A stretch of DNA of 64,000 bases, from NCBI GenBank assembly GCA_023957015.1, contig JAMLHR010000008.1, forward strand, positions 1 through 64,000, given 5' to 3'. Positions 15,134-18,722 of the stretch are shown here, piece by piece (position 1 is the first letter of the stretch; every line of letters begins with the position of its first letter). This DNA comes from Thermomicrobiales bacterium (GTDB taxonomy: Bacteria; Chloroflexota; Chloroflexia; Thermomicrobiales; UBA6265). The translations under genes and the position numbers were made by a program. The notes under the pieces are model-generated. The model was not told the origin of the DNA and searched no databases. It worked only from the letters and a program-made list of their open reading frames with translations.

Positions 15134-17617
15134 CTACTTCACAACGATGTTCACAAGTCGCCCAGGTACAGACACTTCCTTTACGATCTGCTTGCCCTTT
15201 ATCTGAGCAGCGATCTTTTCCAGCGCTTTCGCCGCGGTGAGTTGCTCATCGGCGGATGCACCACTTGCCACTACGATACGATCTCGCACCTTACCGTTAA
15301 CCTGTACCGGAATCTCGATGCTCGCTTCCACCGCCAATGCGGGATCGTAAACGGGCCAGTTCTGCTGGTGGACACTGAACGGCTTGCCCAGTATCTCCCA
15401 CATCTCCTCGGCCACGTACGGCGTACTCGGAGCCATCAGAAGCACCAATGTCTCCACCGCCTCTCGCCAGACCGGTGACGTGATGATGTCTGTCTCCTTC
15501 AGCTTCATCACCTCATTCACATACTCGATCAGTGCGGACACCATGGTATTGAAACCGAAGGTGTCGATCTGATCGGTTGCCCGCTTGATGGTGCGATGCT
15601 GCAGCGCGATCAACGAACGCTCGGCGTCCGAACCCGTGACGGTACCGGATGCGGATGTACCCAGTTCGCTGACGACCGTGTAGGCACGGCGGATGAAACG
15701 CTCCATACCGGTGATGCCACGGTCATTCCACGGGCCACCCTGTTCCCACGGTCCCAGGAACATCAGATGAAGGCGCAACGCATCGGCACCGTACGCGGCA
15801 ACGAGCTCGTCAGGTCCGATCTGGCGACCGCGACTCTTGCTCATCTTGCGACCGTCCTCGCTCAGAATCATGCCCTGATTGCGCAGACGGCTGAACGGCT
15901 CTTCGACATCAATCATGCCGAGGTCACGAACGACCTTGGTGAAGAAGCGCGCATAGAGAAGATGCAGAATCGCGTGCTCGATACCACCGCAATAAAGTGC
16001 CACTGGATTCCATTGCTCTGCGGCCTCGCGATCGAACGGGCCGTCCTCGTAGTTCGGACTTGCGTATCGGAACCAGTACCACGAGGAGTCCATGAACGTA
16101 TCCATCGTGTCCGTTTCGCGGCGAGCACTGCCGCCACACTGCGGACAAGTCGTGTTCACGAACGACTCATGCGTAATCAGCGGACTCTGACCCGTCGGCT
16201 TGAACTCGGCATCCAACGGCAACACCACTGGTAGCTGATCCTCCGGCACGGGCACCATGCCACAGGTATCGCAGTAAACAATCGGAATCGGTGTACCCCA
16301 GTATCGCTGACGGCTGATCAACCAGTCGCGCAGACGCCAGCTGATCTCGGCCGTACCCCGTCCCTGCTCGCCCAACCACTCGATCATCTTCGGCAATGCC
16401 TCAGATTGACGTAGACCATCGAACGGTCCAGAGTTCACGACGATACCATCACCGTGATACGCCTCGGTCATGGTGGCGCCATCCAACAGCGGCTGATCTT
16501 CCGGCTGCACCGTCGGGATGATCGGTAGGTCAAACTGGCGCGCGAACTCAAAGTCGCGGGTATCCCCGGACGGAACCGCCATAATCGCGCCGGTACCGTA
16601 GGTCATGAGCACATAGTCAGCAATCCAGATCGGAATGCGGGCATCGTTAACCGGATTGATCGCGTAGGCACCAGTAAACACTCCAGACTTCTGCCGCGAA
16701 GCATCTGTGCTCTGGCGCTCGATCTCCGTCTTGGTCCGTGCCTTCTGCGCGTATGCATCGACCTCAGCGCGTTGCTCGTCAGTTGTGATACGCGCCACCA
16801 GGGGATGCTCGGGAGCGATCACCATGAATGTCGCACCGAATACGGTATCTGGTCGGGTGGTGAACACCTCCAGAGACTCACCATTCTCCAGCGCGAAGCT
16901 GAGACGAGCACCTTCGGAACGACCGATCCAGTTTCGCTGCATCGTCTTGACGCGCTCTGGCCAATCCAGGCCGTCCAGACCCTCCAGGAGTTCCTCCGCA
17001 TAATCGGTGATGCGCAGGTACCACTGCTCCAGATCACGCTTGTAGACCTCAGCACCACAACGCTCGCAGATGTTGCCATCGATCACCTGCTCATTGGCGA
17101 GCACGGTCTGATCGTTTGGACACCACCACACGGATCCGCCAGCACGGTAGGCCAGTCCCTTCTCCAGCATTTTGAGGAAGAACCACTGGTTCCACTTGTA
17201 GTACTCGGGATCGCAGGTGACGACCTTGCGGTCCCAGTCGATCATCGCGCCCATCAGATCGAACTGGCGCGACATCTCGTCGATGTTCTCATAGGTCCAC
17301 TTCGCCGGATGGATATTGTGCTTGATAGCGGCGTTTTCAGCCGGCAGACCGAAGGAATCGAAGCCCATCGGGTACATGACGTTGTAGCCGCGCATGCGCT
17401 GGGCACGGGCGAACACATCCGGAATCGAGAAGGCGAACCAGTGGCCGACATGGAGCACACCGGATGGATACGGGTACATCGTCAGGCTCATCCAATTCGG
17501 CTTGTCCGAATGATTCGCCGCCTTGTAGATGGCGGATTCCTGCCAGCGAGCCCGCCACTTTGGTTCAATCACGGCTGGATCGTAGCCGGTCTGGATCTGG
17601 TCAGTAATATCTGTCAC
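15134..17617 (-). CDS. leuS: Leucyl-tRNA synthetase
   Basis: Class I aminoacyl-tRNA synthetase of 827 residues that charges tRNA-Leu. Visible are the HIGH-type motif HVGHWFAFSIPDVFARA with PMGFDSFGLPAENAA, two zinc-type cysteine pairs (CPNDQTVLANEQ..CERCG and CDTCG..CPQCG), the CP1 editing domain and the KMSKS loop (GRKMSKSRGRQI). The GTG at 17617 is the likely start because AAGGGAG lies 7 bases before it. An upstream ATG overlaps that ribosome site. Expression is controlled by the Leu T-box leader immediately upstream. Confidence 0.96.
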   Translation of the reverse strand: MTDITDQIQTGYDPAVIEPKWRARWQESAIYKAANHSDKPNWMSLTMYPYPSGVLHVGHWFAFSIPDVFARAQRMRGYNVMYPMGFDSFGLPAENAAIKHNIHPAKWTYENIDEMSRQFDLMGAMIDWDRKVVTCDPEYYKWNQWFFLKMLEKGLAYRAGGSVWWCPNDQTVLANEQVIDGNICERCGAEVYKRDLEQWYLRITDYAEELLEGLDGLDWPERVKTMQRNWIGRSEGARLSFALENGESLEVFTTRPDTVFGATFMVIAPEHPLVARITTDEQRAEVDAYAQKARTKTEIERQSTDASRQKSGVFTGAYAINPVNDARIPIWIADYVLMTYGTGAIMAVPSGDTRDFEFARQFDLPIIPTVQPEDQPLLDGATMTEAYHGDGIVVNSGPFDGLRQSEALPKMIEWLGEQGRGTAEISWRLRDWLISRQRYWGTPIPIVYCDTCGMVPVPEDQLPVVLPLDAEFKPTGQSPLITHESFVNTTCPQCGGSARRETDTMDTFMDSSWYWFRYASPNYEDGPFDREAAEQWNPVALYCGGIEHAILHLLYARFFTKVVRDLGMIDVEEPFSRLRNQGMILSEDGRKMSKSRGRQIGPDELVAAYGADALRLHLMFLGPWEQGGPWNDRGITGMERFIRRAYTVVSELGTSASGTVTGSDAERSLIALQHRTIKRATDQIDTFGFNTMVSALIEYVNEVMKLKETDIITSPVWREAVETLVLLMAPSTPYVAEEMWEILGKPFSVHQQNWPVYDPALAVEASIEIPVQVNGKVRDRIVVASGASADEQLTAAKALEKIAAQIKGKQIVKEVSVPGRLVNIVVK

Positions 17618-17636
17618 TGCATACTCCCTTAAACGC

Positions 17637-17984
17637 AAAAACGCCTCATCCCCTGTCAGGGACGAAGACGTCTACACGCTCCGCGGTACCACCCCGCTTG
17701 ATCGATCTCGCCATTCTTGGTGGAGCCGAGGGGACTCGAACCCCTGACCCCCACACTGCCAGTGTGGTGCTCTCCCAGCTGAGCTACGGCCCCAAGCTGC
17801 GCGAAACTGATCCGCTCTTTCTCCCTGATAACGGTGGGTCACCGGCAAGGACTACTGCGTTCACCCCTGCTGCTCACGGACGAGTTCGATCCAAATATCG
17901 CCTCGCACCGTCCGGCGACTCTCTAGAGACGGATCTACTACTTCCGGTCATCGCGCGCTCGTTCCGGGTATTCCCGTTCGGAGC
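17637..17984 (-). promoter_or_regulatory. Leucine T-box riboswitch leader of leuS, containing a tRNA gene
   Basis: All parts of a transcriptional T-box are visible on the minus strand. Stem I has the AGTA/GAA loop-E pair closed by GATCC (17935-17931) with GGATC (17892-17888). The specifier CTC (Leu) is at 17884-17882, followed by G, and the k-turn GATGA/TGAGC lies below. The apical AGAGAG and the GGTGCGA loop between TCGCC and GGCGA are present. The stem III CGGTGACCCACCG and purine linker follow. The T-box GGGGTGGTACCGCG is at 17695-17682, and the terminator hairpin ends in TTTTT at 17641-17637. UGGU would pair with the ACCA end of uncharged tRNA-Leu. A 76-base tRNA-Ala gene interrupts the linker between stem III and the antiterminator. 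Confidence 0.9.
17718..17793 (-). tRNA. tRNA-Ala (anticodon GGC)
   Basis: Complete cloverleaf with encoded CCA. The acceptor stem GGGGCCG pairs with CGGCTCC (one G-U), discriminator A. The D arm is GCTCAGCTGGGAGAGC. The anticodon stem CCACA/TGTGG holds loop CTGGCAG with anticodon GGC. The T arm is CAGGGGTTCGAGTCCCCTC. It lies inside the leuS T-box leader, on the same strand, about 190 bases after the predicted transcription start and 22 bases before the T-box motif. No separate promoter is visible, so it is probably processed from the leuS leader. Confidence 0.96.
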
Positions 17985-17990
17985 AAAAGC

Positions 17991-18020
17991 AGTATAGGCG
18001 TTCCCGCTCACCGTCGTCAA
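17991..18020 (-). promoter_or_regulatory. Promoter of the leuS leader / tRNA-Ala transcript
   Basis: TTGACG (18020-18015) and TATACT (17996-17991) with 18 bases between them, placed just upstream of T-box stem I. This gives a predicted start near 17984. It would drive both the embedded tRNA-Ala and leuS. Confidence 0.75.
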
Positions 18021-18087
18021 TGCGAAAATGGGGACAGATCACACTTTGGCGCGGTTCAGCGCTGCTCACACTCCGGGAGACCGACAC

Positions 18088-18722
18088 ATGGATAAACTCA
18101 CGCTCGATGTCAATGAGGCGATCACGCGAATGTCCACACGATGTCAGCGGCGCGAGACACCGCCGTCAATAGAACGCGCACCATCGTCCGTCTGAGCGCC
18201 AATGCCGTGCGGTCGCTCCATCGCGGTGAGGACGCTTCCGCTACGCTGGCAGAGGCCGGTGCGATGCTGGAGGATGTGAAGCGGTACACGTCGGATTACC
18301 CCTCCGTGTACTGGGCTGGCTATGTCCAGGATGCGATGAAGGAGTATGCGGAAGCGCTGATCACCCAGGCACTGCTCAATGGAACTGCGGTCCCCGATGC
18401 CCGAGCTATTGGGGTCGAGGATCCCGCCTGGCTGAATGGATTGGCGGAAGCGGCGAGCGAACTCAGACGCGATGTCCTGGATACGCTACGCCACGATCAC
18501 ACGGATCAGGCCGAGCAACTCCTGGCAAACATGGAGCAGGTCTATGACCTGTTGATCACCGTCGATTTTCCGGACTCGATCACAGGTGGACTCCGCCGCA
18601 CGACCGATCAGTTCAGGGCTGTGCTGGAACGCACCCGAGGGGATGTAACGATGAGCATCCGCCAGGCACGGCTTGAGAGGGCGTTAGGTGCAGCGGAAGC
18701 CAGGATCTCTGACGCCGATTAG
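18088..18722 (+). CDS. Translin-family protein, apparent frameshift near the 5' end
   Basis: The distal frame from 18141 encodes an all-helical protein (RTIVRLSANAVRSLHRGEDA...YPSVYWAGYVQDAMKEYAEALI...VEDPAWLNGLAEAASELRRD) typical of the prokaryotic translin family, a nucleic-acid-binding fold. The ATG at 18141 lacks a ribosome site. A well-supported start (GGGAG then ATG 18088, MDKLTLDVNEAITRMSTR) lies upstream in another frame, and joining the two by one inserted base near 18130-18141 gives the expected helical N-terminus. Either the gene is recently broken or one base is missing from the sequence; a shorter protein from 18141 is the alternative. Confidence 0.6.

Follow-up and report, generated by a model that had tools for sequence, protein, structure and literature searches.

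The leader of leuS in the window, a 64,000-nt stretch of genomic DNA from a Thermomicrobiales bacterium, is confirmed to be a leucine-specific T-box with a complete tRNA-Ala(GGC) gene inside it. We consider it probable (about 80%) that this leader acts as a bifunctional RNA: a transcription-attenuating Leu T-box with a functional tRNA-Ala(GGC) on the tip of its stem III. One short leader RNA would probably be leucine sensor and tRNA precursor at once. The anatomy of the leader, its conservation, the covariation of stem III, the single copy of the tRNA gene, and the position of the promoter were read directly from the DNA.

The Rfam T-box model RF00230 matched the leader end to end at 17655-17960 on the minus strand, where all features described below are located (86.7 bits, E-value of 2.2e-19). 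The first-pass annotation had recognized classical T-box parts in the leuS leader and had proposed a search with the T-box model; the full-length match bears out this assignment and spans the tRNA as a 99-nt insertion, which consists of tRNA-Ala(GGC) and its linkers. The curated gathering cut-off of the family is 93; the leader scores just below it and is lost at the default Rfam threshold, probably because of the tRNA insertion. A nested tRNA may likewise explain why some other T-boxes score below the standard model cut-off.

Stem I (about 17862-17960, alignment positions 1-104) contained the AGUAG bulge, the AGAGA/GGUG apical motifs, and the specifier loop. The specifier codon CUC (17882-17884), found in the context GAA-CUC, encodes leucine and agrees with the downstream leuS. 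Stem II and the stem IIA/B element (...CCGUUA) occupied 17828-17871, with approximate borders. The antiterminator (17659-17695) included the T-box sequence GGGUGGUACCGCG...CGUCCC with the UGGU bulge at 17691-17688; the T-box sequence of the leader was GGUGGUACCGCG, containing the UGGN complementary to the NCCA end of tRNA. All of these elements were placed by the RF00230 alignment. An intrinsic terminator was found at 17636-17667 (hairpin 17667-17644 and a U-run), and its 5′ strand was common to the antiterminator, which gives the antiterminator-versus-terminator choice typical of the family. The discriminator was present as GAGCG-stem III-AA; its stem III covaries and bears the tRNA on its tip. 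Antitermination dependent on tRNA-Leu is predicted from these elements. When the entire leader (345 GC-rich nt) was folded as a single sequence, the MFE structure did not reproduce the T-box/tRNA fold, which counts against the bifunctional reading, although folds of this kind are weak evidence. The controlled gene, leuS, encoding leucyl-tRNA synthetase, was identified at 15134-17617 from the ORF list, LeuRS homologues, and a LeuRS tree; its ORF is readable from 17638, and the likely start is GTG at 17617, preceded by AGGGAG.

The tRNA-Ala(GGC) gene at 17718-17793 was detected by both ARAGORN and RF00005 (65.1 bits). It has a complete cloverleaf, the GGC anticodon, G3:U70, A73, and an encoded CCA end, in agreement with the earlier description of a complete CCA-encoding gene on the T-box strand. 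Matches to tmRNA over the same gene were partial and below the cut-off and were rejected. The first-pass annotation had also advised looking for another tRNA-Ala(GGC) gene; none further was found in the window genome, in which the nested gene is the sole GGC alanine tRNA gene found (the genome is approximately 91% complete, and a missed second copy is possible, although unlikely given the relatives). The gene was single in most genomes tested, namely in nearly all relatives and the Bacillota checked, and several Ktedonobacteria had two copies, a point against the bifunctional reading. Its status as the sole gene suggests that the tRNA-Ala(GGC) of the leader is functional, i.e., expressed, processed, and charged.

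The tRNA had originally been assigned to a linker connecting stem III with the antiterminator. The RF00230 alignment corrects this position: in the Rfam model, the insertion falls within the loop that caps stem III, the helix immediately 5′ of the antiterminator, and the element earlier taken for stem III is stem IIA/B. Stem III has as its 5′ strand GAUCAGUUUCGC (17801-17812), which directly follows the RRRxG motif (GAGCG) and was located by helix scan and cross-locus covariation; the 3′ strand, GCGAGAUCGAUC (17700-17711), directly precedes the conserved AA and was located by the RF00230 alignment and helix scan. The RRRxG and AA motifs flanking stem III define the T-box discriminator (PMC7583486). 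Eleven of the twelve positions pair (17812-17801 with 17711-17700). In the window, linkers of 7 nt (5′) and 6 nt (3′) join stem III to the tRNA; their lengths vary widely among loci.

Pairing of stem III was further analyzed across 122 loci with anchors chosen independently of pairing. At least four of the first five positions paired in 70% of the loci in the correct register, compared with 2-21% when the 5′ strand was shifted by 1 to 4 nt in either direction. Differing Watson-Crick pairs were found at each of positions 1-5, and pairing was above that in all 500 shuffles; the slid-register control corrects for relatedness, while the shuffles ignore kinship. This register test supersedes an earlier duplex-energy test of stem III (native mean of -12.8 kcal/mol, swapped -8.8 kcal/mol, upstream-shifted control -10.2 kcal/mol). 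The insertion was inside stem III in every RF00230 alignment inspected, for the window as well as for representatives of other groups. The covariation across loci indicates that the stem III formed around the tRNA is real. A helix rebuilt around the tRNA also fits the earlier suggestion that the tRNA fold may bridge the two halves of the riboswitch.

A good sigma-70 leader promoter with 10 of 12 consensus matches was found at 17991-18020: a -35 element TTGACG (18020-18015), an 18-nt spacer, and a -10 element TATACT (17996-17991), with a predicted transcript start at approximately 17984. Apart from this promoter, no promoter-like sites were found within 17600-18100 on either strand, consistent with the first-pass remark that the tRNA has no visible promoter of its own. 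In related leaders, strong sigma-70-like sites cluster approximately 180-245 nt 5′ of the tRNA, i.e., before stem I. In a sister species (G002), a solo tRNA-Ala with a terminator of its own has retained the -10 element of the window and the initial ~35 nt of the leader (TATACTGCTTTTGCTCCGAACGGG...CGAGC); the T-box and leuS of this species are found 8 kb from it, under a different promoter. This natural rearrangement is an argument that the tRNA, too, is transcribed from the promoter before stem I.

A tRNA promoter inside the leader, with the upstream T-box half being a separate or decayed element, was considered as an alternative. It would be in line with a conserved TTGTCG-17-TATAAT-like motif inside stem IIA/B of many Ktedonobacteria (L072-L090), approximately 40 nt before the tRNA, which could be an internal promoter or a chance overlap with T-box sequence. 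It would also be in line with a locus of Chloroflexota (L221, minus strand) where a tRNA-Ala(CGC) gene directly preceded by its own promoter, TTGACA-17-TAGCAT, is followed by a T-box antiterminator/terminator and then by ilvE and leuS; no evident stem I adjoins the T-box 3′ half there, and the locus is perhaps a decayed nested T-box. However, the window has no such internal site, stem I and the specifier are conserved, the solo tRNA of the sister species kept the leader promoter, and the motif of Ktedonobacteria overlaps conserved stem IIA/B sequence. We regard this alternative as very unlikely overall; in Ktedonobacteria, the motif may nevertheless act as an internal tRNA promoter, a point against the bifunctional reading.

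The occurrence of the layout in relatives, proposed earlier as a check, was assessed in 61 genomes related at the level of the order or more closely; 51 of these could be judged from their loci. The tRNA was nested in the T-box in 38 of the 51, belonging to five families. It was located just upstream of the T-box in nine genomes and elsewhere in three (G002, G005, and G047). In one genome (G007, locus L110), tRNA-Ala(GGC) lies ~200 nt directly before leuS and the T-box is absent; possibly, the T-box was lost and the tRNA-leuS pair left behind. Nesting is thus not obligatory, since some relatives have the tRNA upstream of or apart from the T-box, and this counts against the bifunctional reading.

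A broader search used a pattern in which the T-arm of any tRNA precedes any T-box motif; as the patterns were exact, the resulting numbers are lower bounds. Matches were found in 57 of 400 Chloroflexota genomes (approximately 46 of them real on inspection) and in 39 of 299 genomes of the phylum of Syntrophomonas wolfei, while the reversed-pattern control gave 1/400 and 0/299, respectively. A scan of named genomes revealed at least 120 stretches, and ARAGORN identified tRNA-Ala(GGC) in nearly all of the matches listed. In representatives from Bacillota, Atribacterota, Caldisericota, Coprothermobacterota, Armatimonadota, and other Chloroflexota, the RF00230 T-box spanned the tRNA with 70-125 bits, so that related nested leaders reach up to 125 bits; such a span was also confirmed in most Chloroflexota loci tested. 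In total, the nested layout of tRNA-Ala(GGC) in the leuS T-box was found at no fewer than about 190 loci in Chloroflexota/Thermomicrobiota, Bacillota, Armatimonadota, Atribacterota, Coprothermobacterota, and Caldisericota. Among the groups possessing it were Thermomicrobiales and Ktedonobacteria (Chloroflexota) as well as Syntrophomonas and Desulfotomaculum-like lineages (Bacillota).

Many records with the layout are metagenome bins, which might point to an assembly artefact. However, it was also present in the cultured strains Syntrophomonas wolfei, S. palmitatica, Ktedonobacter robiniae, Dictyobacter kobayashii, and Desulfallas, and the number of loci is large; the probability of an artefact or of chance juxtaposition is practically negligible. 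The layout is a widespread conserved architecture, a point missed by the first-pass annotation, and chance is excluded by its recurrence and the reversed-pattern controls.

Among the matches listed, tRNA-Ala(GGC) was the tRNA in 194 of 200 juxtapositions with a T-box motif. The other six comprised Gly, Ser, Tyr, and Thr tRNAs and tRNA-Ala(CGC) at L256 and L221. The Gly, Ser, Tyr, and Thr cases look like chance, T-box context being missing on inspection, and so does the match at L256. G3:U70 and A73 were present in all 164 distinct nested tRNAs among the matches listed, and the seven acceptor pairs were all kept in 161 of the 164. The specifier was CUC in 154 of 161 related nested leaders according to a strict rule, and the remaining seven were CUC by eye. 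LeuRS, recognized by ORFs and tblastn, was encoded downstream in nearly all loci with enough sequence, sometimes after ilvE or another gene.

Several loci differ in their gene surroundings. At L149 and L208 (Desulfofundulus), the nested T-box is followed first by a gene other than leuS, which stands before leuS or in its place; at L208 it is an acyl-CoA synthetase-like ORF, and leuS is not reached in the available sequence. In Ktedonobacteria and several other Chloroflexota groups (L075, L083, L087, L102, L133, L174, L201, and others), the leuS T-box enclosing tRNA-Ala(GGC) is closely preceded by a tRNA-Ala(CGC) gene, so that the sensing half has an alanine tRNA gene on either side.

The LeuRS tree of the nested loci had two main clades, one dominated by Bacillota and the other made up of Chloroflexota/Thermomicrobiota/Armatimonadota, and changes of phylum were few; thus, two deep lineages of LeuRS have the nested layout. 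The leader may have been inherited vertically and lost in places, or it may have been transferred. Two records titled as Proteobacteria (L160) and Desulfovibrio (L253) had LeuRS grouping with Chloroflexota or Bacillota and are likely misbinned or mislabelled. The recurrence in several phyla with one isoacceptor suggests an old, selected arrangement.

The bifunctional leader would work as follows. Transcription from the single promoter before stem I would produce stems I, II, and IIA/B, the stem III 5′ strand, the tRNA, the stem III 3′ strand, and the antiterminator/terminator, in this order. Stem III would join the two ends of the tRNA, and the T-box would keep its normal RRRxG-stem III-AA-antiterminator core. 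The T-box decision would probably be taken during transcription, with the leader RNA still tethered: uncharged tRNA-Leu would base-pair with both the CUC specifier and the UGGU bulge, leading to read-through into leuS, and with charged tRNA-Leu the transcript would terminate. Since the tRNA lies upstream of the terminator, both outcomes should yield pre-tRNA-Ala, as the first-pass annotation had anticipated, and synthesis of tRNA-Ala should be largely independent of leucine status. RNase P and 3′ processing would free tRNA-Ala from terminated and read-through transcripts alike. Maturation would sever stem I from the antiterminator and the mRNA, making the switch a single-use one; the leader geometry agrees with the earlier expectation that RNase P parts the sensing half from the antiterminator. 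As a cut at 17793 would separate them, sensing would have to come first, or early cleavage would act as an off signal. The order of events, the processing, and the single use are the parts of this model that we infer.

Two readings share this anatomy and differ in whether the tRNA matters to the switch. According to the first, a sub-version of the bifunctional-leader explanation, the tRNA is a passive passenger tolerated in a variable loop, with ordinary tRNA-mRNA cotranscription and with sensing unaffected; the layout would persist as the sole tRNA-Ala(GGC) gene shares the leuS promoter and is hard to separate from it. Both the stem and the loop of stem III are generally variable among T-boxes (PMC7583486), and the tRNA is upstream of the T-box in 9 of the 51 judged relatives or separate from it in some, which speaks for such tolerance. 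However, the same isoacceptor occupies the same loop in several phyla, whereas variation would be expected of a neutral passenger. We give this reading close to an even chance.

According to the second reading, which we put forward tentatively, the nested tRNA tunes the switch: it may delay the antiterminator (~90 extra nt to be transcribed), stack on stem III, or provide an off signal through RNase P cleavage ahead of the decision. Leucine sensing would then be coupled to RNase P activity. The strongly conserved place and identity of the tRNA argue for it, as does the geometry, in which processing inevitably separates the sensor from the antiterminator; the widely varying linker lengths argue against precise stacking. 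In its most extended form, the nested leuS T-box would be an ancient dual-output switch with the tRNA as a working part: the decision between stem III and antiterminator would be delayed and shaped by tRNA folding, and the sensor would be destroyed when RNase P frees the tRNA, giving a single-use leucine sensor tied to tRNA maturation and to the supply of the sole tRNA-Ala(GGC). We offer this version as a possible one, with considerable doubt.

A tRNA-sensing riboswitch encoding another tRNA in its own fold links three processes that are usually considered separately: the sensing of amino acids, the supply of tRNA, and processing by RNase P. The nested layout makes it possible to test the timing of the T-box decision against tRNA processing and what stem III tolerates. 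No account of a T-box with a tRNA gene nested inside it was found in the open literature, with the main older subscription surveys outside the scope. The leader shares with the Leu T-box of leuS described by RF00230 stem I with CUC, stem II, stem IIA/B, RRRxG-stem III-AA, the UGGU bulge, and the terminator, but differs from it in having a complete tRNA gene of another amino acid at the stem III apex. Insertions occur in every T-box domain, their structure and function being unknown, and the review stating this says no more (PMC7583486).

The leader resembles cotranscribed tRNA-mRNA operons in having one transcript from which the tRNA would be released by processing. The thrU-tyrU-glyT-thrT-tufB operon of E. 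coli is of this kind. In contrast to such operons, where tRNAs are located beside the mRNA, the tRNA of the window lies within a regulatory fold, upstream of the attenuator, and tRNA synthesis would therefore continue with the mRNA off. The paired 5′ and 3′ flanks looping out a stable RNA are also known from the leader-trailer helices of rRNA and tRNA precursors, but the helix of the window is at the same time a functional stem of the riboswitch discriminator domain. Some riboswitches are cleaved by RNase P, and some T-box leaders are processed, e.g., that of B. subtilis thrS. The leader of the window is similar to these in the proposed RNase cleavage within a regulatory leader; unlike them, it encodes a bona fide tRNA substrate, and cleavage is therefore expected.
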